Shown here piece by piece: positions 44,894 through 62,962 of a stretch of DNA of 64,000 nucleotides; position 1 is the stretch's first letter, and each line of letters starts with the position of its first letter. This DNA comes from Dyella sp. SG609 (GTDB lineage Bacteria > Pseudomonadota > Gammaproteobacteria > Xanthomonadales > Rhodanobacteraceae): NCBI RefSeq assembly GCF_012275375.1, contig NZ_JAAZQJ010000002.1:124001-188000 (forward strand), written 5' to 3'. A program made the translations under genes and the position numbers. The notes beneath the pieces are model-generated. The model ran no database searches. It had not been told where the DNA came from and was given only the letters and a program-made list of their open reading frames with translations.

Positions 44894-45048
44894 GCGGGCT
44901 GACGCAGGTTTTTTCGGCGAAACTGACTGGCGGCGAAACCATCGCGTGATGTATCGCGGCTTTTTTGACAGCCTCTTCACCGCGCATTTCAAAAATTCCG
45001 GCATCGGCCGTCTTGGCTTCCGTTCAAGCGGCTTGGACCGGAATCCTC

Positions 45049-46458: not shown

Positions 46459-47178
46459 CTAAAGCACGAATTGCCAGGCGTCCGCCTGCATCAGCGATCT
46501 TAACCGTTCGAGTCCCTGTCGATGCAGCTGGGAAATCCTGCCCTTGGTCAGCGCCAGCGCCAGGGCGATCTCCACGAAGGCCATATGCTGCAGATAATGC
46601 AGCTGCAGCACCAGGCGCTCCCGCTCAGGCAGGCGGGCCAGATGGCGATGGACGCGATCGCTCAGCTGGTGGCGCACCGCCTCGTCGTAGGGCGTGGGCA
46701 CGCTGCTGTGTTCCGGTTCGACCGGCACCGACAAGGCATAGCCCGCACCCAGCGACGCCACCAGCCGCACCAGGCGCTCGACCGGATCGTCCTCGGTTTC
46801 TTCCAGCAGGGAATCGATGCCATCGGCGCGCACCTGCTGGCGCACCTCGTGCGTGCCCGCCAGCGCGCGCAATCCGTTGAACACCGCGCCGCGCACGCGC
46901 TGCCTGGCATAGGCCTCGAACGGCACGCCGCGCCGGTGGTCGAAAGCGTCGATGGCTTCGATCAGGCCGATCGAGGCGTTCTGCACGTAATCCGGCCAGT
47001 CGGCGCTGCGTCCGCGCACGCGCATAAATACGGCGCGCGCCAGCTTGCGCGCCCAGCCCACGTAGTGTCCGAGCAAGGCCTCGCGCGCCTGCATGTCCCC
47101 GGCCACGCGCCAGCGCGTCCACAGCTCGGCGCCGGGTTCGGCGGCGTGCTCCTGCGCTGGATACGGCATGGCGGCCAT
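46459..47178 (-). CDS. FliA-like RNA polymerase sigma factor
   Basis: A 239-residue sigma-70 family protein. Region 2 is visible as DYVQNASIGLIEAIDAFDHRRGV with FEAYARQRVRGAVFNGLR (about 63-105). Region 4 is LARLPERERLVLQLHYLQHM with a helix-turn-helix ALTKGRISQLHRQGLERLR (about 180-230). Length and region pattern fit FliA (sigma-28), but region 3 is divergent. It starts one base after fliP, so it is co-translated with structural genes. It may drive late genes elsewhere; no FlgM is in the window. Confidence 0.8.
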   Translation of the reverse strand: MAAMPYPAQEHAAEPGAELWTRWRVAGDMQAREALLGHYVGWARKLARAVFMRVRGRSADWPDYVQNASIGLIEAIDAFDHRRGVPFEAYARQRVRGAVFNGLRALAGTHEVRQQVRADGIDSLLEETEDDPVERLVRLVASLGAGYALSVPVEPEHSSVPTPYDEAVRHQLSDRVHRHLARLPERERLVLQLHYLQHMAFVEIALALALTKGRISQLHRQGLERLRSLMQADAWQFVL

Positions 47179-47179
47179 T

Positions 47180-47932
47180 TCAGTGCCTGTAGCTTCCCAG
47201 CAGGGCCTGCGCCACGAGCACCCAGCCGTTGATCAGCAGGAACAGCAGGACCTTCAGCGGTAGGCTCACCGTGGCCGGCGGCACCATGATCATGCCCAGC
47301 GCCATCAGGATCGCCGCCACCACCAGGTCGATCAGCAGAAACGGCAGGAAGATCACGAAGCCGATCTGGAAGGCTGTGCGCAACTCGCTCAGCATGAAGG
47401 CCGGAATCAGGTGCAGTGCCTGTACGTCGGCCAGCGACTTGGGCTGCGCCGCGCCGGCCATGTCCACCACCGCGCGCAGATCGCCTTCGCGGGTCTGCCG
47501 GATCATGAACTCCTTGAACGGTTGAAAGCCCTGCGTCACCGCCGTTTCCGTGCTGATGCCGTTGGCCAGCCACGGATCCAGCGCATGGTCCTTGGCCGAC
47601 TGCAGCACCGGCATCATCGAAAACAAGGTAAGGAACAGCGACAGCGTGATCACCACCGCGTTCGGCGGCGTCTGCTGCAGGCCCAGCGCCGTGCGCAGCA
47701 TGGACAGCACGATCACGATGCGGGTGAACGAGGTCATCGCGATCAGCAGCGCCGGCAGCAACGACAGCGCCGTGAGCACCGCCACCTGCCGCAGCGCGGG
47801 CGCGAGATCCGCACTGTTCTGGTTCACCGCATCGCGCAGCGGATCGATCGCCGCGGCCGCGGGCAGGCAGAACGCTACGCCGAGCACTGCCGCGAAAGCC
47901 AGCCACACATAGCGCCGCAAGCGCGCCTTCAT
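47180..47932 (-). CDS. fliP: Flagellar export gate protein FliP
   Basis: A 250-residue core export protein. A cleavable signal (about 8-27) is followed by the conserved LLIAMTSFTRIVIVLSMLR, QTPPNAVVITLSLFLTLF and FVIFLPFLLIDLVVAAILMALGM. Four mature helices fit the family. Its ATG overlaps the fliO stop. fliQ and fliR are not seen here and may lie to the right of the window. Confidence 0.95.
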   Translation of the reverse strand: MKARLRRYVWLAFAAVLGVAFCLPAAAAIDPLRDAVNQNSADLAPALRQVAVLTALSLLPALLIAMTSFTRIVIVLSMLRTALGLQQTPPNAVVITLSLFLTLFSMMPVLQSAKDHALDPWLANGISTETAVTQGFQPFKEFMIRQTREGDLRAVVDMAGAAQPKSLADVQALHLIPAFMLSELRTAFQIGFVIFLPFLLIDLVVAAILMALGMIMVPPATVSLPLKVLLFLLINGWVLVAQALLGSYRH

Positions 47933-48306
47933 GGCGCTGCTCCATCGTTGGCCGTTGACGCAAGCGGACGCAGCGCAGTTACCTGCACACCGCTGCGCGC
48001 CTCCACCACCAGCAGCCGCTCGTCGCCATCATGCAGCACATAGGCCGAACAACCGGGCCCCAGGCGCAGCCGTTGCGCAACGCTGACGCCGGGCGCTTGT
48101 GTGCGCGGCCCATTGATCAGTGCGCCACCTTTCCAGCCGCTGCGCTTGAGCAACCATAAAGCGGCAAACGCTGCGCCCAGCAATAAAGCGGCAACCAGCA
48201 GGCTGCCACCTCCCGAAGCGGCAGGCGCGCTCTCATGGCTGAAAGGAATCGGCGCGGCCGGCGCGACCGAAGCCGCGACCGCTGGCATGGCAACATCCAC
48301 ATGCAT
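47929..48306 (-). CDS. fliO: Flagellar assembly protein FliO
   Basis: A 125-residue single-span protein. A Pro/Ala-rich periplasmic start is followed by one helix (about 35-53, SLLVAALLLGAAFAALWLL) and a cytoplasmic part with VSVAQRLRLGPGCSAYVLHDGDERLLVV, the FliO signature. It assists FliP assembly and sits directly before fliP. Confidence 0.85.
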   Translation of the reverse strand: MHVDVAMPAVAASVAPAAPIPFSHESAPAASGGGSLLVAALLLGAAFAALWLLKRSGWKGGALINGPRTQAPGVSVAQRLRLGPGCSAYVLHDGDERLLVVEARSGVQVTALRPLASTANDGAAP

Positions 48307-48310
48307 GGGC

Positions 48311-48625
48311 TTACAGCACCTGCACGATCTGCACGCCGAAGTGATCGCCCACCGCCATCAACTGCGCGGTGGCCACGGGCTTGCCGTTGAGCTGCAGAGT
48401 CACCGGCTCTTCCAGTCCTTGTCCCAAGGTAAGCACCTTGCCTGCCTTCAGCTCGAACAGTTCGGCCAGGCTTACTTCGGTTTCGCCGAGCACGGCGGTC
48501 AGGCGCACTTTGACGTGGCCCACCAGGCTCAGATCGGGCGCCGCGGCACGAGCGGATGCGCCTTCGTCCGCTTCGGCATCGGCGAGCGGCGGCAAGACGA
48601 GCGGTTCAACCAGTACGGAATTCAT
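48311..48625 (-). CDS. fliN: Flagellar motor switch protein FliN
   Basis: A 104-residue protein dominated by a SpoA domain: HVKVRLTAVLGETEVSLAELFELKAGKVLTL, then PVTLQLNGKPVATAQLMAVGDHFGVQI (about 38-100). It forms the lower C-ring and a FliH docking site. ATG 48625 overlaps the stop of the FliM-like gene. Confidence 0.9.
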   Translation of the reverse strand: MNSVLVEPLVLPPLADAEADEGASARAAAPDLSLVGHVKVRLTAVLGETEVSLAELFELKAGKVLTLGQGLEEPVTLQLNGKPVATAQLMAVGDHFGVQIVQVL

Positions 48626-49365
48626 GGTGCGGACTCCAGATGTTCGGTGGACGCCAGGCGCAGGGCGCGGCGTCCGCCGCGCTCGCCCAGCAGTCCCTGA
48701 AAGAGCGGCCGGTCGACGCCGGCCACGGTGATATCCAGCGGGCGCGACAGCGGCGCCAGCGTGGCAATCACGTCGCCGGGCGCCAGGCCTTGCAGTTCGT
48801 CGAGCGAGATCTCGCCCAGATCGAGCGACGCGCGCAGTTGCGCGGACGCCGGCGCAATCGCTTCGATCCGCGGTACCAGCGCAGCCACGCGCGGCGCGGA
48901 AGCCGGCGCCCAATGCGCCGCCGCACGCCGGTCCAGCCACAGGCGCAAGCGCAATCCGCCGATGCCAAGCACCAGCGCACAGCCGCCCCAGCGCGGATCG
49001 GCCAGCGTGTCCGGCACGGCTTCGATCGCGCCGAGGCTGGCATCGTCCAGCGTCTCGACGCCGGTCATGCGGCGCGCCAGATCCAGCAGCGCGGAACGCT
49101 CCAGATGCGCGGCAAGTTCACCACCCTGGCTGGCCGCGAGGCCGGTCAGCGAACCGACCAGATCGCCATCGACGCAGAACGCCACGCCGCGGCTTTCGAC
49201 CTGCCGGCACACGCCATCCGGCACCACGTCGGCGCCGCCGTCGGCAAGCACCTGCGCCGCGCTCATGGCCCAGGCATTCCACCACGCCTGCACCACGGCG
49301 CCCGCCTTCGCCATGACGGCGTGGCGGCGCGTTTCGCCCATCCAACCAAACGCCTTAGCCGCCAC
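48622..49365 (-). CDS. fliM: Short FliM-like/SctQ-like switch protein
   Basis: A 247-residue protein, well short of typical FliM (about 330). The C-terminal SpoA domain is clear: DLGEISLDELQGLAPGDVIATL with ITVAGVDRPLFQGLLG (about 180-235). The N-terminus lacks the CheY-binding leader found in chemotactic FliM, and the middle region has no obvious GGxG-type FliG-binding motif. In length and layout it resembles type III secretion SctQ/HrcQ. It overlaps flgE by 11 bp and fliN by 4. The symbol is by position. Confidence 0.75.
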   Translation of the reverse strand: MAAKAFGWMGETRRHAVMAKAGAVVQAWWNAWAMSAAQVLADGGADVVPDGVCRQVESRGVAFCVDGDLVGSLTGLAASQGGELAAHLERSALLDLARRMTGVETLDDASLGAIEAVPDTLADPRWGGCALVLGIGGLRLRLWLDRRAAAHWAPASAPRVAALVPRIEAIAPASAQLRASLDLGEISLDELQGLAPGDVIATLAPLSRPLDITVAGVDRPLFQGLLGERGGRRALRLASTEHLESAP

Positions 49366-50524
49366 CGCCGCCTCCCGTGCTGGAATACAGCTGCTGCAGC
49401 ATGCTGTCGGTCACGGTGAGCACGCGCGAGCTGGCCTGGTAGCCGCGCTGCACGATAATCATCTCGGTCAGCTCGCGGGTCAGGTCGACGTTCGACTGTT
49501 CCAGGCTGCCGCCCAGGATCTTGCCCAGATGGCCGGAGGTGGCCTTGCCGTAATTGAGCTTCACATCCGGCCCTGCGGTATAGAGCGCGCCGGGACCTAG
49601 CTGCAGCAGCTGCTCGTCGGCCACTTCGGCCAGCGCCAGCTGCGGGCCGGTCTTCTTCTCGTTGTCCGAGTAGGTGATCTGCAGCAGGCCAGCACTATCG
49701 AAGCTCACCTGCGACATGCCCACTACGGCGTGGCCGTCGACCGCATGCGCACCGATATTGGAGCTCGCGCCGGTAATCTGCGTCGCGCCGGAGAACCCGC
49801 CCGGCGTACCCGCATTGAAGGTCACCTGCTGGCTCGCGCCGTTGCCGCTGATGGTGACGTTGAAGCTGTTGAAACCCGGCGTCGGCGTACCGCTGGTATC
49901 GAAACGCAGCTCGCCGCTGCCGACCACGTTGCTGCCCTCCTTCACGGAGACTAGCCAGTCGTTGGCGGTGACGGCCTTGTTGTTGGTCAGCGTCACCGTC
50001 AGCGTGTGCAGGCCGCCGGAAGCGTCGTACACCTGCAGCCCGGTGACCTGCTGAGTGGTGTCGTTCGGCGAAAGATTGCCGCTGAAATTCACCGAGGTGG
50101 TGGCCTGCGGCGGCAGCGTCTGCAGATCGGCAATGCTGAAATCCGCCAGCCCGCCAGCATCGTTGAGCGCGGCCACGCGGTAGCCGGTGACGTCGTCGAT
50201 CAGCTGGCCGCTGTCGTCGAAACGGAAATGGCCGCCCCGCGTGTAGAACAGATTGCCGTTGTCGTCCCGCAGCACGAACAGGCCCTTGCCCTGGATCGCC
50301 GCGTCGGTGCTGGTGCCGGTCTGCTGCGTATCGCCCTGGCCCAGGTCGGTCACGTCCTGCGACAGCTTGGTGCCGATGCCGTCGCCGGCGTTCTCGAAGA
50401 ACGCAGCCTGGCCGCGGAAGCCCGGCGTATTCATATTGGAAATGTTGTTGCCGATCTTCTCCAGGTCGCGCGAGAAGCCCAGCAGGCCCGACAGGCCGTT
50501 GAACAGTGCTTGCATCATGGGCAT
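49355..50524 (-). CDS. flgE: Flagellar hook protein FlgE
   Basis: A 389-residue hook subunit. The N-terminal ALFNGLSGLLGFSRDLEKIGNNISNMNTPGFRG is the flagellar rod/hook signature, followed by GKGLFVLRD. The D1-D2 region is Thr/Gly-rich. The C-terminal GSLEQSNVDLTRELTEMIIVQRGYQASSRVL is the matching coiled-coil half. It ends in an unusual six-glycine run. It lies 11 bp after flgD. Confidence 0.93.
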   Translation of the reverse strand: MPMMQALFNGLSGLLGFSRDLEKIGNNISNMNTPGFRGQAAFFENAGDGIGTKLSQDVTDLGQGDTQQTGTSTDAAIQGKGLFVLRDDNGNLFYTRGGHFRFDDSGQLIDDVTGYRVAALNDAGGLADFSIADLQTLPPQATTSVNFSGNLSPNDTTQQVTGLQVYDASGGLHTLTVTLTNNKAVTANDWLVSVKEGSNVVGSGELRFDTSGTPTPGFNSFNVTISGNGASQQVTFNAGTPGGFSGATQITGASSNIGAHAVDGHAVVGMSQVSFDSAGLLQITYSDNEKKTGPQLALAEVADEQLLQLGPGALYTAGPDVKLNYGKATSGHLGKILGGSLEQSNVDLTRELTEMIIVQRGYQASSRVLTVTDSMLQQLYSSTGGGGGG

Positions 50525-50535
50525 GGCGCTATTCC

Positions 50536-50961
50536 TCAGGGCTGCACAAGGGTGATCTGCGACAGGCGCACGCCGGTCATCACGTTGCCGCCGCTGCTGG
50601 CGGTCACCGACAGCTGCACGCCGCCAGTGGTGAAGGACACGGCCGTGATCTTGCCGGCGGTGGTCGAACCATCCACGCCGGTGACCTGCACCGGATGGTT
50701 GAGCAGGCTGATCGACTGGTCGGTGGACTTCATGCTGAGCAAGTCCTGGATGCCCTGGTTCATCTCGCCATTGAGCTCGATGCCCTCGAACTGCGACAGC
50801 TGCAGCAGGAACTGGCTGTTATCCAGCGGCTGCATCGGGTCCTGGAACTGCAGCTCGCTGACGAACAGGCGGATGAAGTCCTCCTGGTTGATCGCCTTGT
50901 TGCTGACGCCCGAGGCGGTGGCAGGCGCGCCGAGGACGGCGCCGATCGAATCAACGGCCAT
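50536..50961 (-). CDS. flgD: Hook-cap protein FlgD, compact form
   Basis: A 141-residue protein, shorter than the usual 220-230. It keeps the N-terminal signature NQEDFIRLFVSELQFQDPMQPLDNSQFLLQLSQFEGIE, then a shortened domain (SLLNHPVQVTG to the end), so the FlgD Ig-like/tudor part is reduced. It caps the growing hook. It overlaps the FliK-position gene by 11 bp. Confidence 0.9.
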   Translation of the reverse strand: MAVDSIGAVLGAPATASGVSNKAINQEDFIRLFVSELQFQDPMQPLDNSQFLLQLSQFEGIELNGEMNQGIQDLLSMKSTDQSISLLNHPVQVTGVDGSTTAGKITAVSFTTGGVQLSVTASSGGNVMTGVRLSQITLVQP

Positions 50962-51688
50962 GCGGTTCTCCCTTGCCGATATCCTGGTTAACGGCGCCTG
51001 CGCGCCAGATGTCCTGCCCGTTGAGCACGATGCGCTGCAACGGCTGGCCCGCACCGCGGGCGAATGAGTGCAATTGTTCGACCAGCGCGCGCTGCTGCGG
51101 CGCATCCAGGCGGTAGTCGCGGATCCACAGCGTGGCGGTGCCGTCGCTGAGGCGCACCATGCGGCGCGCCCATTCGGCGAAGTCGCCGCTGGTGCCGGTG
51201 CGCAGTGCGGTGGCTTCAACGGTAGCGCTGCTGTCTCGCTCGATCGGAATAGCCATTCCATCGGTGCGGATGGCAACCGCGTCGGCATCGCTGCCAACCG
51301 CCATAGCATCGGCTGATGCGTGTGGCACGGGCATGGCATCGGGTGTCGACGCCAACGCCAACTCCGGCGAAACGCCGCCGGCCGCATGGCCGTCCGCGCC
51401 GTCACGGTTGCTGTCGAGCATCGACAGATAACCGGTCGCATGCAGCCCCTGCGGGTAGATCCTTCCCGACATGCCCGCCATCGCCAGACGCACGTCGAGC
51501 GGTGCGGCGGCATCGTCGGCGCGAGGCTGAGCATGCTGGCGGCTTTGCGACAAACCATCGGCGCCGCTTTGCTCCGATGCGTGCGACGAACGCACATGCG
51601 CCTCGAAATCCTTGCGCGGATTCGGCTTGGGCGGAGCCGGCCTGGCAGGCAATACATCCGGCGTATTGAGCGGCAACAAAGGGTTCAC
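50951..51688 (-). CDS. FliK-position protein (candidate hook-length regulator)
   Basis: A 245-residue protein starting with GTG 51688, overlapping the fliJ stop (GTGA). The first two thirds are low-complexity, Pro/Ala/Asp-rich and probably unfolded, as expected of a molecular ruler. The last 70 residues are folded-looking: DFAEWARRMVRLSDGTATLWIRDYRL and LQRIVLNGQDIWRAG. The usual FliK C-terminal LxLxPxxLGxVEV signature is not seen. The role is inferred from position and architecture only. Confidence 0.6.
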   Translation of the reverse strand: MNPLLPLNTPDVLPARPAPPKPNPRKDFEAHVRSSHASEQSGADGLSQSRQHAQPRADDAAAPLDVRLAMAGMSGRIYPQGLHATGYLSMLDSNRDGADGHAAGGVSPELALASTPDAMPVPHASADAMAVGSDADAVAIRTDGMAIPIERDSSATVEATALRTGTSGDFAEWARRMVRLSDGTATLWIRDYRLDAPQQRALVEQLHSFARGAGQPLQRIVLNGQDIWRAGAVNQDIGKGEPHGR

Positions 51689-52128
51689 TTCGCCGACTCC
51701 CTGCCTAGCCACAGATCCATCAGATCGGCGGCTGCCTTGGCTTCGACCGCCTGTTCTGCCTGCTCTCGTGCTTCGGTGGCGCGCTCGCCGGCCATATCTC
51801 GCCGTGCGCGGGCCAAGGTCCAGTCCTCCGAAGCTTGCCGGAGCGCCGTTTCGCTCTGCGCCAGCGTGTCGGTGCTGCGCGCAAGGACGGTTTCGGCGGC
51901 CATGGCCGCGTCCGCATACAGCGCATAGCGCGCCATATCCGCCGCAGGATGATGCAGGGCCGATTCGCGTGCGCGCTCGAAGGTCTCCAGCGTGGCTTCG
52001 TCGCGCTCCTTGATCTCGCGCGCGGCCTGCGCATCCGCATGCGCAGTGGCCAACTGCTGCCGCGCGCGTTCTTCGCGGAAGCGCTCCAGCGCGGCAAGAC
52101 GGACCAGGGTCGCGGCGCGATCGCTCAT
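51685..52128 (-). CDS. fliJ: Flagellar export chaperone FliJ
   Basis: A 147-residue, almost wholly helical, highly charged coiled-coil protein (AALERFREERARQQLATAHADA onwards), as in FliJ/SctO. It would act as the central stalk of the FliI ATPase. It lies directly after fliI, with an ATGA overlap. Confidence 0.82.
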   Translation of the reverse strand: MSDRAATLVRLAALERFREERARQQLATAHADAQAAREIKERDEATLETFERARESALHHPAADMARYALYADAAMAAETVLARSTDTLAQSETALRQASEDWTLARARRDMAGERATEAREQAEQAVEAKAAADLMDLWLGRESAK

Positions 52129-53459
52129 CGGGCGAGGTTCCCCTGGCCATTCAGAATCGACGCCAGCGCCGCATAACCTTCGTGGCGATCCAGGCTGACG
52201 TCGGGCGTCTGCCGCAGGCTCTGCTCCAATGCCGGAGCCAGCTCGACGGCGCGGTCCAGCCGCGGATTGGCGCCGCGCTGATACGCACCCATGTCGATCA
52301 GGTCGCGCGAGGCTTCATAGGTGGCCAGCAGCGCCTGCGCTTCGGCCACATGCCGGCGCTCTTCCGCCGTGGTCAACCGCCCCAGCCAGCGGCTGACGCT
52401 GCGCAGGGGATCCACCGCCGGCAGCTGCCCGCGATGGGACAGATCGCGCGACAGCACGATATGCCCGTCCAGCAGCGCACGCATATGGTCGGCCACCGGC
52501 TCATTCATATCGTCGCCCTCGACCAGCACGCTGTAGACGCAGCTGATCGATCCCGAACCCTTGAGCGCACCGCCGCGCTCGGTCAGGCGCGGCAATGCAT
52601 TGAAGACGGAAGGCGGATAGCCGCGCGACGTCGGCGGCTCGCCCGCGGCCAGGCCGATCTCGCGCTGCGCCATGGCGAAGCGCGTCACCGAGTCCACCAT
52701 CAGCAGCACGTCCTTGCCCTGGTCGCGGAAGTATTCCGCCACCGCATGCACGGCATGGGTGGCATGCGCGCGCACCAGCGGCGGCTGGTCCGAGGTGGCT
52801 GCCACCACCACCGCATGGCGCATGCCCTGTTCACCCAGCGCCTGGGTGACGAAATCGCCAACCTCGCGCCCGCGCTCGCCGATCAGGCCGACCACCACCA
52901 CGTCCGCGCGCACGTGCCGCGCCAGCATGCCCAGCAGCGTGGTCTTGCCCACGCCGGAGCCGGCGAACACGCCCATGCGCTGGCCTTTGCCCATCGGCAG
53001 CAGCGTGTCGACCACGCGCACGCCGGTTTCCAGCACCGTATCTTCCTCGCGGCGCGACAAGGGATCGATCGGCGCGCGGTAGACCTCGTAATGCGCTTCC
53101 GCGACCAGAGCACCCTTGCCGTCCAGCGGTGCACCGAACGCATCGACCACGCGCCCGAGCATGCCCATGCCCACCGGGATGCGCAGGCTGTGGCCCAGCG
53201 CACGCAGGCGATCGCCCACGCGCAAGCCCGCGGCCTGGCCCATCGGCATCAGCAGCACACGGCCATCGCGGAAGCCGATCACCTGCATCAGCAAGGCCTC
53301 GGTGCTGCCGGACTTCCGCAACTCGCACAGCTCGCCCAGATGCGCATCGGGGCCGATCGCCTCCACCACCAGGCCATTGCTCGCCACCACCTCGCCTTCG
53401 CGCACGAACGCGGGCAGCTGGCGCAATTGCTCGTGGAAACGGGCGACCAGGGCGCTCAT
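52125..53459 (-). CDS. fliI: Flagellum-specific ATPase FliI
   Basis: A 444-residue F1-beta-like export ATPase. Walker A is FAGSGVGKTTLLG (about 160-172), followed by GLIGERGREV and Walker B DVLLMVDSVTRFA. The PPSVFNALPRLTERGG and SISCVYSVLVEGDDMNEP motifs mark the FliI/SctN family. ATGA overlaps occur on both sides (fliH and fliJ). Confidence 0.96.
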   Translation of the reverse strand: MSALVARFHEQLRQLPAFVREGEVVASNGLVVEAIGPDAHLGELCELRKSGSTEALLMQVIGFRDGRVLLMPMGQAAGLRVGDRLRALGHSLRIPVGMGMLGRVVDAFGAPLDGKGALVAEAHYEVYRAPIDPLSRREEDTVLETGVRVVDTLLPMGKGQRMGVFAGSGVGKTTLLGMLARHVRADVVVVGLIGERGREVGDFVTQALGEQGMRHAVVVAATSDQPPLVRAHATHAVHAVAEYFRDQGKDVLLMVDSVTRFAMAQREIGLAAGEPPTSRGYPPSVFNALPRLTERGGALKGSGSISCVYSVLVEGDDMNEPVADHMRALLDGHIVLSRDLSHRGQLPAVDPLRSVSRWLGRLTTAEERRHVAEAQALLATYEASRDLIDMGAYQRGANPRLDRAVELAPALEQSLRQTPDVSLDRHEGYAALASILNGQGNLAR

Positions 53460-54130
53460 GCGTGGGCGTCGCCGTCATGGAGTGCGGCGAGCAAGGCATG
53501 GCGCAGTTGCTGCGTGCGCACGTCGAGGCCCGCATTGAAGCGGCCTCGGCGGCTTTCCAGCACGCAGCTGCCCGCCTGCAGGCTGGCATCGGCGACAACG
53601 GGGATACCTGGCATCAGTGCCTGCAGCGCCGCCGCATCAGCTTCCGCCACGCGGACGCTGACCACCTCGCTGCCCAGCTCGCGGCGCGCTTGTTCGCACA
53701 AGGCCGCGACCAGGCTACGGTCCGCGGCCTTGTCGCCAAGCACGCGCAGCATCGCGGCATAAGCCATCTCGACGGCAGCCGACTCCGCCCAGCGGCGGTC
53801 TTCTTCCAGCGCGGCAGTCAATGCATCCGACACCGTGGCGAGGCGTTCGTGCTCGACGCGCAACGTCTGCTGCGCTTCATCCAACGCTGTCTTCGCCTGC
53901 TGCTCAAATTCAGTGCGCGCCTGCGCCGCGGCGGCCTCGAACTCCGTCCTCGCCTGGCGCAAGCCATCGCGATAACCCTGTTCGAAACCGAAGCGATGTT
54001 CCTCCGCGTCGGCCTCCTCCGGCATGATGCTGGCGAGCGTTTCGCCACGTTCCCCGAACGCGCGCGACTGTCCCTGCACGATATCGTGCCGTGACAGCCG
54101 GCGGGCGCCTTTGGTCAAATCCTGGCTCAT
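53456..54130 (-). CDS. fliH: Flagellar export stator protein FliH
   Basis: A 224-residue SctL/FliH-type protein: a helical, Glu/Ala/Arg-rich N-terminal half, including FGFEQGYRDGLRQARTEFE, and a C-terminal domain (DASLQAGSCVLESRRGRFNAGLDVRTQQL) similar to V/F-type peripheral stalks. It regulates FliI and docks it to FliN. ATG 54130 overlaps the upstream stop. Confidence 0.88.
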   Translation of the reverse strand: MSQDLTKGARRLSRHDIVQGQSRAFGERGETLASIMPEEADAEEHRFGFEQGYRDGLRQARTEFEAAAAQARTEFEQQAKTALDEAQQTLRVEHERLATVSDALTAALEEDRRWAESAAVEMAYAAMLRVLGDKAADRSLVAALCEQARRELGSEVVSVRVAEADAAALQALMPGIPVVADASLQAGSCVLESRRGRFNAGLDVRTQQLRHALLAALHDGDAHA

Positions 54131-54573
54131 AGCCACTCCGCGAAGCTACCGGCCTTGCCGGGCCATTGCGCCAGCGCTGCACGCAGCGAAGGCGGCAACG
54201 GCTGTATCAGGCGCGCGGCTTCTTCGCGCACCTTGCGGGCGCGCGTCACGCCGAGGCTGTCGAGGTCGACATCCCGATCTTCCGGCTGATGCGCAGCCAG
54301 CCAAAGCGCGATCCAGGCGGGATCGACCTGCTTCAAGGCGGCAGGCAGCGCAGCCTGCGTCACCGTCGCTTCCGTTTCCGCGGCCGCGATAGCGGGAGCC
54401 GGAATCTCCAGCTCGCCCAACTGTCCGCTCCAGCGCTTCAGTTCCGGCGAACGCAGCACCCTCTGCAACGCGCGTGCGTGCTCCACGGGCAGCTGCTTCA
54501 GCAGCCAGGCGCGGTCACCGGGATGCAGCGCCGCGAGCCGCGCGGCGGCTATGCGCAGGCCCTGGGTGTTCAT
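54127..54573 (-). CDS. Truncated FliG-like protein in the fliG slot
   Basis: A 148-residue protein located between fliF and fliH, with ATGA overlaps on both sides. FliG is normally about 330 residues. LRIAAARLAALHPGDRAWLLKQLPVEHARALQRVL resembles a FliG N-domain helix array, and VDPAWIALWLAAHQPED weakly resembles the middle-domain EHPQTIALILAHL. The C-terminal torque domain, with its charged helix, is absent. Type III secretion operons hold the short SctK in the same place between ring and stator genes, so it may serve as a C-ring adaptor. No frameshift remnant of the missing part is seen. Confidence 0.65.
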   Translation of the reverse strand: MNTQGLRIAAARLAALHPGDRAWLLKQLPVEHARALQRVLRSPELKRWSGQLGELEIPAPAIAAAETEATVTQAALPAALKQVDPAWIALWLAAHQPEDRDVDLDSLGVTRARKVREEAARLIQPLPPSLRAALAQWPGKAGSFAEWL

Positions 54574-55947: not shown

Positions 55948-56244
55948 TCAGACCTGCATGCTGGTGATGTCGCGGTACGCCGCCAGCACGCGGTTGCGCA
56001 CCTGCACGACGAACTGGAGATCGATGCGCGCCTTTTCCAGCGCGATCATCACGTCGTGCACCGGCAGGTCCGCGCCGGCGGCCAGCGCACGCGTCGCCTG
56101 GTCGGCGGCGTTGAGCTGCTGGTTGACGCCTTCGACGCCTTGGGCCACCAGACTGTCGAAGCCCGGCGCGGTCTGCACCGGCGTGGCGCGCGCGGAAGGA
56201 GCGATATCGCCGAGCGCGGCAAGGGGAGCAATGGGTTCGATCAT
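55948..56244 (-). CDS. fliE: Hook-basal body protein FliE
   Basis: A 98-residue rod adaptor between MS ring and rod. The C-terminal signature DLPVHDVMIALEKARIDLQFVVQVRNRVLAAYRDI is clear. It lies 7 bp from fliF and one base from flgC. Confidence 0.93.
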   Translation of the reverse strand: MIEPIAPLAALGDIAPSARATPVQTAPGFDSLVAQGVEGVNQQLNAADQATRALAAGADLPVHDVMIALEKARIDLQFVVQVRNRVLAAYRDITSMQV

Positions 56245-56245
56245 C

Positions 56246-56629
56246 TCAGCGGCCTCCGATGCTCAACGATTTCAGCAACATGCCATGCAGCGTATTGAAG
56301 GCGCGGATATCGGCCTGGTACGCGCGCTGCGCGGACATCAGCGTGGCCATCTCCTGCGCCAGGTCGACGTCCGGGTACTGCACCGTGCCGTCCGGCCCGG
56401 CCAGCGGATTGGACGGATCGAGCACGGTCTGCCCGGCGCCATCCGCGCTGGACGCGCCGGCGGCAATGGCCGGCCCATCCACTTCGCGGGTGAACGCAGC
56501 CGCCTGCGCCGCGGCGCGCTGCTGCACCGGCATGTCGGCGGTGGCGATGCGCTGGCTGGCCGCCTCCATGCGCATGCGCTCGTAATCCAGGCCGGAACGC
56601 GTCACGGCGAACATGGCATCAAGACTCAT
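56246..56629 (-). CDS. flgC: Proximal rod protein FlgC
   Basis: A 127-residue rod subunit. N-terminal FAVTRSGLDYERMRMEAASQRIATADMP and C-terminal VDLAQEMATLMSAQRAYQADIRAFNTLH are the paired rod helices. The usual NxANxxT motif is altered to RIATADMP. It belongs to the flgB-flgC-fliE block. Confidence 0.93.
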   Translation of the reverse strand: MSLDAMFAVTRSGLDYERMRMEAASQRIATADMPVQQRAAAQAAAFTREVDGPAIAAGASSADGAGQTVLDPSNPLAGPDGTVQYPDVDLAQEMATLMSAQRAYQADIRAFNTLHGMLLKSLSIGGR

Positions 56630-56639
56630 GACTGCAGAC

Positions 56640-57014
56640 TCATGACTGGTCTCCGCTGAGCGCCAGGCTCATGAGGGCGAACTGGCGCGTAGCCGCTTCC
56701 GACAAGGCCTGGTAGTGCGCGCTGGCCAGGGCCAGTTCGGTCACTTCGTGATCCAGGCTGAGCGAGCCGTCGGCGCTGTCGATGCGCTGCGAGGTAGTGC
56801 TGCCCAGGCGGGCCGAGGCAAGCGCGCCGGCATCGACGTCGCCACCGTCGGCAACCCGCTGCAGCAGGTCCAGCGCGTCGCCGAAGTCCGCGCGCTGCAC
56901 GGTGCCGTCGGGCCGGTTGGCAAAGGCCACGTTGTGGCTGGCGATCTCCGCCCGCCGCTGGGCCATGTCCAGCGCAAGGCCGATGGCGCCGAGAGTGACA
57001 TTGTGATCGGACAT
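56640..57014 (-). CDS. flgB: Proximal rod protein FlgB
   Basis: A 124-residue rod subunit. ALDMAQRRAEIASHNVAFANRPD matches the FlgB N-terminus (normally ...NxANxxTP), and the C-terminus LALASAHYQALSEAATRQFALM the paired helix. AAGGGGAA before ATG 57014 is a strong ribosome site. Confidence 0.9.
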   Translation of the reverse strand: MSDHNVTLGAIGLALDMAQRRAEIASHNVAFANRPDGTVQRADFGDALDLLQRVADGGDVDAGALASARLGSTTSQRIDSADGSLSLDHEVTELALASAHYQALSEAATRQFALMSLALSGDQS

Positions 57015-57025
57015 CCGTATTCCCC

Positions 57026-58150
57026 TTACTGGATGAGCAATTCGCCGCGCAACGCACCGGCCGCCTTGATCGACTGCAGCACGGTGATGACATCGCGGGT
57101 GGAAAGATGGATCGCGCGCAGCGCGGAAATCAGGTCGCCCACGGTGGCGCCGGTGGGCAGCTGCACCATGCGGGCATCGTCTTCGTTCACCTTGATTTTG
57201 GTCTGCGGCACGATGGCGGTGCGGATATTGCGCGAGGGATCGACAAACACGCCGTCGCCCGGCTGCGAAACCAGGTAGTCGGTCTTGATCGACACGCGCA
57301 GGTCGCCCTGCGAAATGGTCACGCTGGCCAGCTGCACGTCGCCGCCGGACACCACCGTGCCGGTGCGCTCGTTGACCACCACGCGCGCGACCTGGTCGGG
57401 CTGCACCATCACGTTTTCCAGCGCGGCGATGTTCTGCACCGCGCTGCTGGGCTGGCTGAAATGCACCACCACCTTGCCGGCGTGCGCGGCGCTGGCCTCG
57501 ACGCCGGGCAGCGTGCGCTGCACCGCCTGCGCCACGCGCGAGGCGGTGGTGAAATCGGGCTGGTACAGAATCAGATTGATGGTGCCGCCCGGCCCCAGCG
57601 CACCCAGCGGCGCGGAACGCTGCACGGTGGCGCCTTCCGGTACCAGGCCAGCGGTGGGATGGTTCTTCTGTTCCAGGTTGCCGTGCGACTGCACCTTGTA
57701 GCCGCCGACCGAAATCGCGCCCTGGGCCAGCGCATAGACCTGACCGTCAGGGCCATCGAGCGGCGTCAGCAGCAAGGTGCCGCCGCCGAGGCTGCGCGCA
57801 TCGCCGACCGAGGCCACCGACACGTCCAGCTTCTGGCCGGATTCCGCAAACGCCGGCAGCGTCGCGGTCACCATCACGGCCGCCACGTTGCGGCTGTTCA
57901 GATCGTCGGTGGACACGTTGACGCCAAAGTGGCTGAGCGTGTTCGCCACCGACTGCAAAGTGGCGTGGTTGCGGTTGGTATCGCCGGAGCCGGCCAGGCC
58001 GACCACCAGGCCGTAGCCGATCAGCGCGTTGTCCTGCACGCCTTCGGCGCGTGCGATTTCCTTCAGGCGCACGCCCACGAAGGTCTGCGTCTGCGCCGAA
58101 GCCGCGAACGCAGCCACAGCCAGCAGCACGGTACAGAGCCCGCGCCTCAT
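57026..58150 (-). CDS. flgI: Flagellar P-ring protein FlgI
   Basis: A 374-residue periplasmic protein with a signal peptide (LCTVLLAVAAFAASAQ, about 5-20). RLKEIARAEGVQDNALIGYGLVVGLAGSGD is the FlgI signature, and LLTPLDGPDGQVYALAQGAI and VVNERTGTVVSGGDV follow. ATG 58150 overlaps the flgH stop and is preferred to ATG 58165. It assembles the P ring around the rod. Confidence 0.96.
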   Translation of the reverse strand: MRRGLCTVLLAVAAFAASAQTQTFVGVRLKEIARAEGVQDNALIGYGLVVGLAGSGDTNRNHATLQSVANTLSHFGVNVSTDDLNSRNVAAVMVTATLPAFAESGQKLDVSVASVGDARSLGGGTLLLTPLDGPDGQVYALAQGAISVGGYKVQSHGNLEQKNHPTAGLVPEGATVQRSAPLGALGPGGTINLILYQPDFTTASRVAQAVQRTLPGVEASAAHAGKVVVHFSQPSSAVQNIAALENVMVQPDQVARVVVNERTGTVVSGGDVQLASVTISQGDLRVSIKTDYLVSQPGDGVFVDPSRNIRTAIVPQTKIKVNEDDARMVQLPTGATVGDLISALRAIHLSTRDVITVLQSIKAAGALRGELLIQ

Positions 58151-58728
58151 AGCAACCCCAGCCATTTGCTGACCCTGTAGATGATGCTGCGCTTCTGCGG
58201 CTCGCTGACGTCGCCGCGGCCGGTGAATTCGATGTTCGCTTCGCTGATGCGGTTGGACAGGATGGTGTTGGAGGAGGAGATGTCCTCCGGCCGCACCGCG
58301 CCGCTCAGCGCAATGCGCTGCTTCTCGCCGTTGACCACCACCGATTGCTCGCCGCGGATGCGCAGGGTGCCGACGTCGTCGATGCCGGTGACCCTCACCG
58401 CGATCTGCGCCTGCACCGCGCCCGAGCGCGTGGTCTGCCCCGCGCCGCTGTCGCTGCCGGAAAGACCGAGATTGCCGTTGTAATCGTGATGCGTGGTGCG
58501 CAGGCTGCCGCCCAGACTCACGTTATTGGCCGAGTCGGTGTTCGCGGCGGCTGACGCGCGCGAAGTCTCCACCACCAGGATGGTGAGCGTGTCGCCCACG
58601 CGGTGCGCGCGGCGATCCTCGGCCAGGCCGCGGTAGGTGCGCGGGTCGATCATGCCGCCGCCGTCCTGCGCGCATGCGGCAGGCAGGCCGAGCAGCAGCA
58701 GGGTTGCGAATGTGTATTCACGGAACAA
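58147..58728 (-). CDS. flgH: Flagellar L-ring protein FlgH
   Basis: A 193-residue outer-membrane ring lipoprotein. The start is a TTG at 58728 with GGGGAG upstream; no ATG or GTG precedes the signal. The lipobox LPAAC (Cys 19) is atypical, with Pro at -3. RAHRVGDTLTILVVETSRASA and EDISSSNTILSNRISEANIEFTGRG are diagnostic. It overlaps flgA by 11 bp. Confidence 0.93.
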   Translation of the reverse strand: MFREYTFATLLLLGLPAACAQDGGGMIDPRTYRGLAEDRRAHRVGDTLTILVVETSRASAAANTDSANNVSLGGSLRTTHHDYNGNLGLSGSDSGAGQTTRSGAVQAQIAVRVTGIDDVGTLRIRGEQSVVVNGEKQRIALSGAVRPEDISSSNTILSNRISEANIEFTGRGDVSEPQKRSIIYRVSKWLGLL

Positions 58729-59419
58729 CTTGCGCCACTCCCCGGTCCGTCACCGTCGCCTTTACGGGTTCGCTGGTACCGGCCACCTGCACTGGCACCG
58801 TCTCGCCCTTGTTCGCAGCGCGCATGGCCACGCCCGCGCGCTCCACCGTGATCCCGCCGTAGCTCGCCATCAGGCGTACCTGCTGGCGATTGTCGACGTC
58901 GGGCACGTCCTCGAAATCTTCGATGCTGGCCACCTGCCCCGCGCGCACCGGATGGCGCAGGCGCTTGCCTTTGAGCGCATCCGGCGAGGCCAGCGGCGCG
59001 GACGAGCCGAGCGCCACGTCCACATTGCGTTCTTCCAGCTGCAGTTGATCGGCCGGCAGCCGCTCGGCCACGTCGTCGCGATAAACCCAGGCCTGCCCCG
59101 TCGCCGACAGCGCAAAACCCACCGGCACTATGCGCAGCACGCGGCCGCCGCTGCGCACTTCCACCATCGCGGTGAAGCGTGCGCGCGGCCAGCGGCCGGC
59201 GATCGGCAGCGCGCGAAATTCCAGCGCGCCCTTGGCGGCCGGCAGATGTTCCGGACGCGTCGTCACGTCCAGCTGCACATGCTCGTAGCCATGGCCGAGG
59301 CGCTGCTCCACCGCCGCACGCGCAGCCGCCACCGCGCCATCCGCGGCGGCATCGCTGGCGCACGCGGCGGCCGGCGCCAGGCACGCCAGTGCGAACAAGC
59401 TGGCAAGGCGAAGGCTCAT
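58718..59419 (-). CDS. flgA: P-ring chaperone FlgA
   Basis: A 233-residue periplasmic chaperone for FlgI with a signal peptide (about 1-20). The C-terminal SAF domain (about 95-230) includes ALKGKRLRHPVRAGQVASIEDFE and GITVERAGVAMRAANKGETVPVQ, conserved in FlgA. It lies between flgG and flgH, adjacent to the ring genes. Confidence 0.93.
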   Translation of the reverse strand: MSLRLASLFALACLAPAAACASDAAADGAVAAARAAVEQRLGHGYEHVQLDVTTRPEHLPAAKGALEFRALPIAGRWPRARFTAMVEVRSGGRVLRIVPVGFALSATGQAWVYRDDVAERLPADQLQLEERNVDVALGSSAPLASPDALKGKRLRHPVRAGQVASIEDFEDVPDVDNRQQVRLMASYGGITVERAGVAMRAANKGETVPVQVAGTSEPVKATVTDRGVAQVVP

Positions 59420-60186
59420 CGATTGAGATTGTTGATGGTGTCCAGGATCTGGTCGGTCGCCTGCAGCACGCGCGCATTAAGCTGGTACGCGCGCTGCGCC
59501 AGCACCAGGGCAGACATCTCGCCTACCAGGTCGACGTTGGAACCCTCGACATAACCCTGCGACAGCGTGCCGAAGCCCGCATCGCCCGGCTTGCCCACCA
59601 CCGGGTCGCCCGAATCCGGCGTCACCGCGAAATTGTTGCCGCCGACCGAGCGCAGCGCTTCCGGCGCGGCGAACGTCACCAGCTGCAGGTTGCCGACCAC
59701 GCTGTCCTTGGCGTCGCTGCCGAGCTGTGCGTGCACATCGCCATTGCTACTGACCGTGATATGGGTGGCGTCGGCGGGAATCTGGATGCCCTGCGCCAGG
59801 CGATGGCCTGCGGCGGTGACCAGATAGCCGTCGTTGTCCACCTTGAGCTGGCCGGCGCGCGTGTACAGGCGGCCGCCGTCTTCGCCGCTTTCGATTTCGA
59901 AGAAGCCCGCGCCCTGGATCGCCAGGTCCCAGGTGTTGCCGGTCTGCTGCAGGGCGCCGTCGATCATCACCGGCGCGGTCTCGCTGATGCGCGTGCCGGC
60001 GCCGAGCTGGTTGGCCGCAAGGCCTTGCTGCGCCTGCGCCGGCGTCAGCGCCGACACGTCGGTGAAGGCCACGCGCGAGCGCTTGTAGCCCGGCGTCTGC
60101 ATATTGGCCAGGTTGTTGGAGATCACGTCGATCTGCTGCTGCTGCGAGTTGAGCCCGCTGGCGGCGATATGGAGTGCTTCGATCAT
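59416..60186 (-). CDS. flgG: Distal rod protein FlgG
   Basis: A 256-residue rod subunit of standard length. ALHIAASGLNSQQQQIDVISNNLANMQTPGYKRSR and IQGAGFFEIE open it, and SNVDLVGEMSALVLAQRAYQLNARVLQ closes it. All family motifs are intact. It overlaps flgA by 4 bp. Confidence 0.96.
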   Translation of the reverse strand: MIEALHIAASGLNSQQQQIDVISNNLANMQTPGYKRSRVAFTDVSALTPAQAQQGLAANQLGAGTRISETAPVMIDGALQQTGNTWDLAIQGAGFFEIESGEDGGRLYTRAGQLKVDNDGYLVTAAGHRLAQGIQIPADATHITVSSNGDVHAQLGSDAKDSVVGNLQLVTFAAPEALRSVGGNNFAVTPDSGDPVVGKPGDAGFGTLSQGYVEGSNVDLVGEMSALVLAQRAYQLNARVLQATDQILDTINNLNR

Positions 60187-60193
60187 GGCGTCC

Positions 60194-60871
60194 TCAGGAG
60201 TCCTTGCCGATCTGGTCGATACCGGCCACGAGAGCCGTGTGATAGGTGGAAATCGCGTGCTGGATGGAACTGGCGTGGCGCGACAGCTGCATCAGCCGCA
60301 CCATTTCCTCGCCGGGGTCGACGTTGGAACCTTCGAGCGCGCCCTGGTGCACGCGCACATCGGCGTCCGCGGTGGCGCTGGCGGCGTACATGCCGCCACC
60401 CAGCGGCTGCAGCGTGGCGCCGTCGGCCACGTCGACCAGGGCCAGCTGCGCCACCACGTCCTTGCCGTCGTGGATGGCGCCGTCTTCGCCGATGGTTACG
60501 GCAGAACTCGAGAGCACGATGGGGCCGTCGGCGCCGAGCACCGCGCGGCCCTGCGCGTCCACCAGGCGTCCGCTGGCATCCAGCGAGAACTGGCCGGCGC
60601 GCGTCAGGAACACCTGCTCGTCGCCGGCGCTCACCTGGAAAAAGCCTTGCCCCTGCAGGGCAAGATCCAGCGGGCGACCGGTCTGGATCAGGGCGCCATC
60701 GCGCTGGTCCACGCGCGTGGGCGCCGCGCCCAACGTACCTTCGAAACCTTCGGCGCGCTGTACCGCGCGATAGCCCGGCGTGGTCAGGTTGGCCACGTTC
60801 TGGCTGAGCGTGCCTAACGCGCGCACGTCGGCGCTCAAGTAACGGGCAATCGAGCTGATGGGGTCGCTCAC
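60194..60871 (-). CDS. flgF: Proximal rod protein FlgF
   Basis: A 225-residue rod subunit. LSADVRALGTLSQNVANLTTPGYRAVQR and LALQGQGFFQV are present, and the end is SNVDPGEEMVRLMQLSRHASSIQHAI. The start is GTG 60871 with a strong AAGGAG. It lies 7 bp from flgG and 9 bp from flhA. Confidence 0.93.
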   Translation of the reverse strand: MSDPISSIARYLSADVRALGTLSQNVANLTTPGYRAVQRAEGFEGTLGAAPTRVDQRDGALIQTGRPLDLALQGQGFFQVSAGDEQVFLTRAGQFSLDASGRLVDAQGRAVLGADGPIVLSSSAVTIGEDGAIHDGKDVVAQLALVDVADGATLQPLGGGMYAASATADADVRVHQGALEGSNVDPGEEMVRLMQLSRHASSIQHAISTYHTALVAGIDQIGKDS

Positions 60872-60880
60872 TGGGTCTCC

Positions 60881-62962
60881 TTATGCCGCGGCCGGCGCCG
60901 CCGCGGTGGGCGTCACGCTGCCGAAGGCCCGCACCACGATGGTGCCGGGCAGTTCGTTGATGCCGATCACCGCCACATGCGGCAGCGAGCGCTGGATCAG
61001 GGCGCGCACGTGCCGGCGCAGCAGCGACGGGCACAGCAGCACCGGTGAAAGGTTCTTGGCCAGCATCGCGTCGGACTGCCGGGCCAGGCTGCCCAGGAAG
61101 CCGTCGAGCATGTTCGGATCGGTCAACAGCATCGAATGCCCCTCGCGCTGGCGCGCCGCCTGCAGCATCGAACGCTCGAATTCCGGTGCAAGGGTCAGCA
61201 CGTGCAGTTCGCCCTGTTCGTTGCTGGCTTTCTGGCAGATGCCCGCGCCCAGGCGCTCGCGCACCTTCTCGGCAAGGTCCTCGGCCTGCTTGCTCACCTT
61301 GCCGGCGTCCACCAGCACTTCGAAGATGGTTTCCAGCTGACGGATGCTGACCAGTTCGCGCAGCAGGATCTGCAGCACCTTCTGCACGTCCGTATAGCTC
61401 AGGACGGTGGGCACCAGTTCGTCGACCAGACCGGCCTGGCGTTCCTTCAGGCGCAGCGCAAGGCGCTCGACTTCGGCGCGCGTGAGCAGGTCCGCCGCGT
61501 GGCGCTTGGCCAGTTCGTTGAGGTGAGTGACCAGCACCGTATCCGGATCGACCAGGGTGTAGCCCGCGCCGCGCGCGTACTGGCGCGCATCCGGCGAAAT
61601 CCATTGCGCCGGCAGTCCGTAGGCCGGATCGCGCGTTTCGCGGCCTTCCAGCTTGGGCCGCTTGCCGCCCGGGTTGATCGCCAGCACCGCGTCGAAATGC
61701 AGCTCGCCCTGCCCGATGCGGTTGCCGTTGAGCAGCACCTGATACTGATGTTCGCCCAGCGTGCCCGCGGTGGCTTCGCGCGTCATCACCGGCGGCAGCA
61801 CGAAGCCGAAGTCCAGCGCGAACTGCTTGCGCAGGCTCTGCATGCGTTCGTTGAGTTCCGCCGCGCGGTGCTGGAAGACTTCCTTCACGGCCGCGCCCAG
61901 GCGCAGTTCGAGCGGGTCGATCTGCAGGCTGCGGTAGAAATCCTCTTCGCCCTTGGGCTTCGCTTCGGGCGTGTCCGCTTCGGTTTCCGCCGCGGATTCG
62001 GTGGATGCGCTACGCCTTGCCAGCCAGATCATCGCCGCGATGCCGGCCAGCACGAAGGCCACCGGCAAGACCGGCAGGCCGGGCAGCAGCATCACGATAA
62101 ACAGCGTGATGCCCACCACCATCAAGGTGCGCGGGTTGGACAGCACCTGCTTGGCGATCTCGCCGCCCAGCTCCGCATCCGACGCGGCGCGCGTGATGAT
62201 GATGCCGGTCGCCACCGCGATCACCAGCGAGGGAATCTGCGTGACGATGCCGTCGCCCACCGTCAGCAGGGTGTAGCGGTGCACGGCCTCGGTCCACGGC
62301 ATCCCATGCTGGAGCATGCCGATGGACAGGCCGCCGATGATGTCGATCAGCAGAATGACGATGCCGGCGATGGCGTCGCCCTTGACGAACTTGGTGGCGC
62401 CGTCCATCGCGCCGTAGAAGTTCGCCTCGCGCTCGATCAGGGAGCGGCGGCGGCGGGCCTCGGCCTCGTCGATCAGCCCCATGTTCATGTCGGCGTCGAT
62501 GCTCATCTGCTTGCCGGGCATGCTGTCCAGGGTGAAGCGCGCGGCCACTTCCGCCACGCGCTGCGCGCCGCTGGTCACCACCACGTACTGCACCACCACC
62601 AGGATCAGGAACACCACCAGGCCGATCACATAGTTGCCGCCCACCACATAGCTGCCCACCGCACCGATCACATGGCCGGCGCTGCCGCCGTTGAGGATCA
62701 GCCGCGTGGCCGACACGTTCAGCGCCAGGCGGAACAGCGTGGTGATCAGCAGCAGCGACGGAAAGGTGGAAAAGCTCAGCGGCGAGTCGGTGAGGAAGGT
62801 GATCAGCAGCACCAGCAAGGCGATGCTGAAGTTCACGATCAGCAGGAAATCCAGCAGCCCCGGCGAGACCGGCACGAACAGGATGGTGAGGATGAAGATC
62901 ATCGCGCCGACCAGCGCGAGATCCCGCCTGCCATCCAGCAGCTGGCGCAGCAGCCCCTTCAT
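60881..62962 (-). CDS. flhA: Flagellar export gate protein FlhA
   Basis: A 693-residue core of the export channel. About eight N-terminal helices include FSTFPSLLLITTLFRLALNVSATRLIL, and the FHIPEP-type loop carries EAEARRRRSLIEREANFYGAMDGA with KFVKGDAIAG (about 160-210). A linker (about 330-350) leads to the cytoplasmic substrate-docking domain. ATG 62962 overlaps the flhB stop. Confidence 0.97.
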   Translation of the reverse strand: MKGLLRQLLDGRRDLALVGAMIFILTILFVPVSPGLLDFLLIVNFSIALLVLLITFLTDSPLSFSTFPSLLLITTLFRLALNVSATRLILNGGSAGHVIGAVGSYVVGGNYVIGLVVFLILVVVQYVVVTSGAQRVAEVAARFTLDSMPGKQMSIDADMNMGLIDEAEARRRRSLIEREANFYGAMDGATKFVKGDAIAGIVILLIDIIGGLSIGMLQHGMPWTEAVHRYTLLTVGDGIVTQIPSLVIAVATGIIITRAASDAELGGEIAKQVLSNPRTLMVVGITLFIVMLLPGLPVLPVAFVLAGIAAMIWLARRSASTESAAETEADTPEAKPKGEEDFYRSLQIDPLELRLGAAVKEVFQHRAAELNERMQSLRKQFALDFGFVLPPVMTREATAGTLGEHQYQVLLNGNRIGQGELHFDAVLAINPGGKRPKLEGRETRDPAYGLPAQWISPDARQYARGAGYTLVDPDTVLVTHLNELAKRHAADLLTRAEVERLALRLKERQAGLVDELVPTVLSYTDVQKVLQILLRELVSIRQLETIFEVLVDAGKVSKQAEDLAEKVRERLGAGICQKASNEQGELHVLTLAPEFERSMLQAARQREGHSMLLTDPNMLDGFLGSLARQSDAMLAKNLSPVLLCPSLLRRHVRALIQRSLPHVAVIGINELPGTIVVRAFGSVTPTAAAPAAA

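Follow-up and report, generated by a model that had tools for sequence, protein, structure and literature searches.

An operon in the 64,000-nucleotide stretch of DNA analysed here (the window; C2:124001-188000 of the 5.13-Mb genome of Dyella sp. SG609, labelled G000) encodes a motorless flagellum, keeps its gene content and order among relatives, persists in genomes devoid of rotary motor genes, and is genetically tied to giant YD-repeat toxins. We consider it probable that its products assemble into a hook-basal body which would not rotate, and through which giant polymorphic YD toxins would be exported. Since the machine usually travels with giant toxin-like genes in relatives, these data suggest that a swimming motor has been rebuilt as a protein-export device; the motorless flagellum is very probably the general form of an apparatus described from Lysobacter.

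The genes of the operon are listed in Table 1. Beyond flhB, outside the window, lie fliR and fliQ (Pfam-confirmed), a TPR gene and then a giant YD-repeat gene. The TPR-repeat protein that heads the operon (L003 3050-4210) is possibly a chaperone or secretion factor. Next to the other end of the operon, on the opposite strand, is a DUF535 gene (window 44965-46068, plus strand), which we take to be VirK-like.

Table 1. Operon genes and the neighbouring YD-repeat gene (window positions unless a contig is named)
Gene or product	Position	Strand	Basis or remark
conserved 117-aa protein	46072..46425	-	no Pfam match; at either operon end in relatives; could be an anti-sigma factor or chaperone
FliA/WhiG-like sigma factor	46459..47178	-	below family cut-off
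fliP	47180..47932	-	Pfam
fliO	47929..48306	-	by position; Pfam FliO E 0.094, below cut-off
fliN	48311..48625	-	SpoA domain
short fliM, 247 aa	48622..49365	-	SpoA C-terminal domain alone matches classical FliM
flgE, hook	49355..50524	-	
flgD, hook cap	50536..50961	-	Pfam
fliK-like	50951..51688	-	by position, start inferred; no Pfam match
fliJ	51685..52128	-	by position; no Pfam family match
fliI, ATPase	52125..53459	-	Pfam
fliH	53456..54130	-	
mini-FliG, 148 aa	54127..54573	-	FliG-N-like half and FliG-M-like half, without FliG-C
fliF, 456 aa	54570..55940	-	C-terminal tail with Trp kept
fliE	55948..56244	-	Pfam
flgC, rod	56246..56629	-	rod C-terminal domain, Pfam
flgB	56640..57014	-	by position; no Pfam match; family profile matches flgB-position ORFs of outgroup loci
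flgI, P ring	57026..58165	-	Pfam
flgH, L ring	58147..58728	-	Pfam
flgA	58718..59419	-	Pfam
flgG, rod	59416..60186	-	Pfam
flgF, rod	60194..60871	-	Pfam
flhA	60881..62962	-	nearer flagellar than injectisome model
flhB	62959..64000	-	extends past window end; Pfam
giant YD-repeat gene	C2:194125-210940 (L131; L003 8123-18916)		5605-aa open frame, outside window, beside operon

The gene set reads as that of a second, flagellum-derived type III export machine with a predicted MS ring, rod, hook, L and P rings, export gate and ATPase; its cytoplasmic ring would be cut down to mini-FliG, a short FliM and FliN, and the operon has no filament or stator genes. When the short FliM was compared with four classical FliM sequences, the SpoA domain alone aligned (E 3e-6), and neither the CheY-binding N-terminal motif nor the middle domain was matched. 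An N-terminal motif, presumably the one that binds CheY, is present in the classical FliM at locus L002 and absent from the short FliM.

The short gene between fliF and fliH

A preliminary description of this DNA had claimed that a lone gene of 148 codons lies between fliF and fliH, with ATGA overlaps on both sides. The ORF coordinates confirm this; the start and stop of the gene overlap those of its two neighbours, and the interval leaves room for no other gene. Sequence comparison indicates that the shortness of the gene is no artefact of truncation, because homologues of 144-158 aa recur in 22 of the 233 genomes of the window's family and in all 18 named operon loci (L036-L053), an outcome which also answers the question of conservation raised in that description. 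In the loci checked, the start of the gene is coupled to its neighbour through ATGA or GTGA.

On sequence comparison, mini-FliG is a remote homologue of FliG, comprising part of FliG-N and, less surely, of FliG-M. Scanned singly, it gave no Pfam match over the cut-off and no NCBIfam match. A profile of the 22 family members retrieved two PDB sequences at E<=10, both of them FliG; the best was 3hjl (E 0.016), and 5tdy, the FliG-N of a FliF:FliG complex, matched weakly (E 0.59). When aligned by hhalign with classical FliG, mini-FliG scored 40.6 (E 2.4e-5; FliG residues 8 to 183, with a gap), whereas 26 unrelated profiles of the same operon, used as a control, scored at most 18.1; by domain, the E-values were 8.6e-5 for N (8-58), 7.7e-4 for M (116-183) and 0.013 for C. 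A broader profile placed 14 of 15 classical FliGs above inclusion, with a best value of 1e-10 in that small set, although its 29 operon-locus ORFs are not noise-free, in that three genomes are represented twice and two ORFs were later judged false.

The preliminary description had proposed structure prediction as a check on kinship with the C ring, and the matches obtained point, each of them weakly, to FliG. The AlphaFold model consists of two bundles of helices with a loose linker between them (pLDDT 77.6, pTM 0.51), and when it was compared with the PDB by Foldseek, the top 20 of 35 matches were FliG or FliG-containing entries, some of which name only the complex in their title; the best E was 0.072, and none reached 0.001. 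Against homology it can be held that every single FliG match is weak, in the PDB profile search as in Foldseek, and that the commonest weak Pfam match of the 22 members, taken singly up to E 1, was MgtE_N (14 members, best 1e-3) and not a FliG domain (FliG_N 2, FliG_M 1, FliG_C 1). The MgtE_N fold is related to FliG-M. By fold, the second half of mini-FliG matches both M pieces and C pieces of FliG; since the sequence comparison alone favours M (7.7e-4 vs 0.013), we assign this half, less surely than the first, to FliG-M rather than to a piece of FliG-C. An identity with SctK, another comparison proposed at the outset, is not favoured, since the Pfam matches of the 22 members include no SctK family.

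The torque domain, which the encoded machine had been claimed to lack, is indeed missing; 148 residues leave no room for FliG-C, and PF01706 gave only 12.2 bits against a cut-off of 23.3. The C-terminal tail of classical FliF binds FliG-N, and the tail tryptophan is kept in the window and in all 27 FliF rows having a C-terminus (24 genomes). We propose that mini-FliG keeps the FliF-binding part, FliG-N, together with an M-like part, having lost the torque domain, and that it would bridge the FliF tail to FliM and FliN, forming a static cargo docking platform that could not be turned.

A search with the single mini-FliG protein recovers 4 of 61 relatives only, and a locus scan with it returned nothing; FliF was used instead, since mini-FliG is too diverse for patterns. 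Several candidates were set aside: the match in G196 (L035) is an unrelated ORF, which reduced the listed family genomes from 23 to 22, and those in G492 (L092) and G140 (L094), which belong to the 29 rows making up the broader profile, are lone ORFs antisense to longer ones, with no operon genes nearby. The match in G028 was left out of the counts. Six weak class-level profile matches fall in frames of 450-500 aa, perhaps MgtE.

Persistence with and without a rotary motor

A single FliG_C (PF01706) match over threshold was found in the Dyella genome, on contig C3 (141 bits). The flagellar cluster of this contig includes flagellin, FliD, a FliF of 563 aa, a FliG of 335 aa, a FliM of 338 aa and a FleQ-like regulator (names assigned by reading, backed by BLAST for FliI, FliM and FliP), and because a complete classical flagellum is thus encoded on C3, the operon of the window represents a second system. 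The three flagellin-type matches of the genome are all on C3; stator (MotA) and flagellin matches lie on C3 and C5, with none on C2. A look elsewhere for fliG, motAB, fliC and fliD, as first advised, therefore finds FliG, flagellin and FliD on C3 and the stator and flagellin matches on C3 and C5. The suggestion that the real FliG is encoded elsewhere stands in that a 335-aa FliG exists, and falls in that this FliG is part of the other flagellar cluster.

Among the 27 mini-FliG genomes covered by the motor-gene test (G315, G501, G152 and G724 were outside it), FliG_C, flagellin and MotA were each found in 20, the same 20 for all three and G000 among them, and all three were absent from G173, G200, G024, G450, G460, G476 and G335. 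The system therefore persists without a rotary motor, in keeping with the non-rotating secretion device that had been envisaged. In the 20 genomes the operon could instead yield a second flagellum that does rotate, with FliG-C, stators and filament supplied by the cell's classical system, an explanation we regard as very unlikely: it is already strained by the seven genomes which have the operon and no match to FliG_C, flagellin or MotA, and the short FliM matches classical FliM, in the shallow set of four, through its SpoA part alone. A second, weaker FliG_C match was seen in G120 (G120:C23:243125-243442; 81 bits, 354-aa frame), perhaps reflecting a third flagellar system.

The order TPR-fliQ-fliR-flhB-flhA-flgF-flgG-flgA-flgH-flgI-flgB-flgC-fliE-fliF-miniFliG-fliH-fliI-fliJ-fliK-flgD-flgE-fliM-fliN-fliO-fliP-sigma, with the 117-aa gene at one end, is kept in two families and one distant lineage, as judged from family profiles among the maps listed for loci that reach far enough; fliJ escapes its profile in some. 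The system occurs in 9 genera of the window's family, and the 18 named holders comprise eleven Dyella, the others including a Rhodanobacter, Stenotrophomonas ginsengisoli and four MAGs. In another family of the same order the operon was found in G335, G450, G460, G469 (a 4-kb contig only), G476, G315 and G501, and in G724, from the same class and a different family, it runs from TPR through fliP, with no sigma gene detected at the locus. A FliI tree of 37 rows, which contains no injectisome and to which four loci contributed nothing, separates the 25 rows of the system from the classical FliI of the same genome by a single branch (100/98; present in each of 200 bootstrap trees); the program warns that long branches meet there.

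The missing filament, stator and rotor domain would also be expected of a degenerate flagellum on its way out, with the short FliG and FliM as products of decay, and in G476 fliF is split in two frames. The same gene set, order and sizes across two families (mini-FliG of 144-158 aa in 22 family genomes) and the deep FliI clade speak against general decay, as does the fact that G476 has the sole split fliF among the maps listed, and we give this explanation very little credence. The G476 copy itself (L089 13643-15024), whose adjacent YD frames are also broken, is possibly decaying.

Giant YD-repeat genes and their leader

The YD-repeat frame beside the operon of G000 contains 15 RHS stretches, a LysM and a C-terminal CdiA_C_tRNase match (E 8e-41), in a Pfam scan that read 3597 of its 5605 residues; a second YD gene with the same leader was seen at C4:193579. 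Beside the operon of relatives, such frames reach 7853 aa. Among the 27 genomes with a visible operon flank, 24 have a YD gene within 12 kb of the operon, where random placement predicts 0.43 (G000, G007, G024, G032, G099, G106, G107, G109, G110, G118, G120, G121, G122, G123, G125, G152, G173, G214, G315, G335, G450, G460, G476 and G501). This count was made by reading several flank and leader comparisons together; it leaves out G132, G163 and G469, whose flanks are not visible, keeps G724 apart, and treats the operon of G032, split over two contigs, as one. It includes contig-end pieces in G125, where Pfam finds a LysM and no RHS repeat, and G152, as well as broken frames in G476 and G450, the G450 span merging the coordinates, not the letters, of two frames. 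The operon showed no neighbouring YD gene in G203, G200 and G213; the first two have one elsewhere. The gap between operon and YD gene is about 0.1 to 11 kb, an approximate figure measured from an assumed operon extent, and the YD gene is on the opposite strand in G460, G450 and G173. In six named loci (L037, L041, L043, L044, L045 and L053) the leader starts 137-656 bp past the sigma gene.

All 13 YD N-termini read share a common leader, roughly M-V-A-V-(I/V)-x-G-N-G-L-G-L-x-N-T-S-L-x-Q-L-G, which is diverged in G335. In an alignment of 13 rows, the maximal 12-residue hydropathy mean was 1.78, and the first 30 positions included no more than one basic residue; by hydropathy only, the leader does not look like a Sec signal. 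A 60-residue leader profile matched 21 of the 233 family genomes, 20 of them among the 22 mini-FliG holders, vs 1 of the 211 other genomes (Fisher p 1.2e-25); when the 12 genomes that supplied profile rows were removed, the leader was found in 8 of 10 holders vs 1 of 211 (p 3.2e-12), both p-values being too small because the genomes are related. The one positive genome without a mini-FliG match is G152 (E 4e-5), which has the operon at a contig end. Applied to the order, the search matched 23 of 398 genomes, including each of the five mini-FliG genomes from the other family and, in addition, G315, G465 and G501; the leader thus led to operons in G315, G501 and G152 that the mini-FliG search had missed. 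In G465 a fragment of the leader was found, with no operon within 20 kb, and two mini-FliG MAGs (G163 and G213) gave no leader match. In G724 a YD frame lies about 5 kb past fliP; truncated where the contig stops, it spans at least 2392 aa and begins M-A-S-I-I-V-G-N-D-L-G-V-Q-N-S-S-L-N-K-I-G, a start that resembles the leader. Between fliP and this frame lies a 1381-aa protein, surface-like by reading (L109 2545-6690).

The C-termini of the YD proteins differ: that of G000 resembles a tRNase, that of G007 is Scabin-like (E 3.6e-21, other ADP-ribosyltransferase toxin families matching less strongly), and that of G110 has a weak metallopeptidase match; 8 of the 10 C-termini scanned had no Pfam match. 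Among the matches listed, RHS frames of at least 3000 aa occur in 17 of 20 genomes with the operon vs 1 of 20 without; this list holds the best rows, in which the 4663-aa frame of G335 and the matches of three operon-free genomes do not appear. The YD frames measure about 3700-7850 aa, against 260-2002 aa (one of 3622) among the listed rows of operon-free genomes. The best reading of these sequences is that the neighbours are giant polymorphic toxins, with RHS repeats and an exchangeable C-terminal toxin domain. Among the titles and abstract openings listed in literature searches, none connects flagellar export to YD/Rhs proteins or to Dyella.

We reasoned that these giant Rhs-like proteins are the likely cargo, that their shared leader is a probable export signal, that the hook tube, with the L and P rings as its bushings, would lead out of the cell, and that the sigma factor may time expression. 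Adjacency could instead reflect shared regulation or transfer, such that a non-rotating flagellar exporter serves other cargo (hook subunits, lytic enzymes or pilus factors), with the YD genes mere neighbours, for example co-regulated by the sigma factor or co-transferred. Such a role would suit the reports, in the available parts of the sources, that flhA, flhB, fliI and fliR of Lysobacter affect twitching and fliI affects PilA secretion (PMC7277350), and that FlgD is secreted by the Lysobacter apparatus (PMC9927559). The distances and opposite strands noted above likewise mean that YD genes are not always operon members, and the three genomes without an adjoining YD gene and the stray leader of G465 weigh against export. 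We nevertheless judge the other-cargo explanation unlikely: the leader tracks the machine even where no YD gene adjoins it (G200 and G203), it pointed to operons that had been missed, and G724 shares the pair of operon and YD gene. Beyond export of YD toxins, we lean towards a separate lineage of export machines, in which a motorless flagellum with rod, hook and outer rings launches YD toxins bearing a flagellar-type leader; this would be an independent case in which a flagellum became a weapon, its platform protein being an unusually short FliG.

Comparison with known systems

The route from rotary flagellum to protein-injection machine has long been debated on the basis of injectisomes and a myxobacterial intermediate. 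The system described here would offer a series of extant machines which have shed the motor and filament parts and retain rod, hook and rings, in many genomes alongside a classical flagellum that is intact; it suggests how giant YD-repeat toxins might be exported, and points to the minimal part of FliG that export may need.

The injectisome sorting platform (SctK, SctQ and SctL) is a reduced, non-rotary docking platform. In likeness to it, the FliN-type protein of the window scores 64.8 and 60.2 bits with the SctQ model and FliN, respectively, both below the cut-off; in contrast, FlhA scores 756 bits with the flagellar model and 575 with that of the injectisome, short of the respective cut-offs of 772 and 692, and the operon has no secretin or needle gene, flgH, flgI and flgE being present instead. 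The classical flagellum on C3 shares homologous FliF, FliG, FliM, FliI and export gate, and differs in its full-length FliG (335 aa) and FliM (338 aa), its flagellins and FliD, and a FliI that falls outside the clade of the system. The needle-less T3SS* of Myxococcus ('Myxo' NF-T3SS) is likewise flagellum-derived and without motility parts, and is used in contact killing according to the available parts of PMC10433427 and PMC3459982; unlike the window's operon, which keeps rod, hook and L/P-ring genes, it is without any outer-membrane part.

Rhs/YD polymorphic toxins resemble the neighbours of the operon in their RHS repeats and differing C-terminal domains, some from toxin families, whereas the operon-linked proteins stand apart by their giant frames and a leader of their own. 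Several export routes, T3SS among them for some toxin domains, are described for polymorphic toxins in the available part of PMC3482391, as is an RNase gene in flagellar operons of firmicutes, which sets a precedent for toxins near flagellar genes.

The window's system is very probably the 'FT3SS' of Lysobacter, which bears out the lead given in the preliminary description, where a flagellar export system without flagella had been mentioned for that genus. G450 and G460, both of genus g86, carry the operon including mini-FliG (L086/L087 and L088, respectively). Because a lytic protease of G450 is identical at 192 of 194 positions to PDB 5mrr, which we take to be an enzyme from Lysobacter, g86 is very probably that genus. 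By family profiles, both operons hold flgB, fliE, mini-FliG and the short FliM in short or divergent forms, the very genes (fliG, fliM, fliE and flgB) reported lost on BLAST evidence in the available part of PMC9927559, where the apparatus is said to work without a FliG homologue; a mini-FliG is the simpler account, and would correct the view of the apparatus as FliG-free. Release of foreign flagellin by the L. enzymogenes apparatus depends on flhB and fliI (PMC7277350, available part), which fits the proposed export mechanism, as does the secretion of FlgD noted above (PMC9927559). As far as the available part of PMC4657364 goes, 22 flagellar genes occur in three Lysobacter species and none in L. 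antibioticus, with a separate, secretin-less T3SS in all five strains. The likeness to the Lysobacter apparatus thus consists in the same gene set in two genomes assigned by us to that genus; the system of the window differs in extending over nine genera of Dyella's family, in standing beside an intact flagellum in 20 of 27 genomes, and in its linkage with giant YD proteins.
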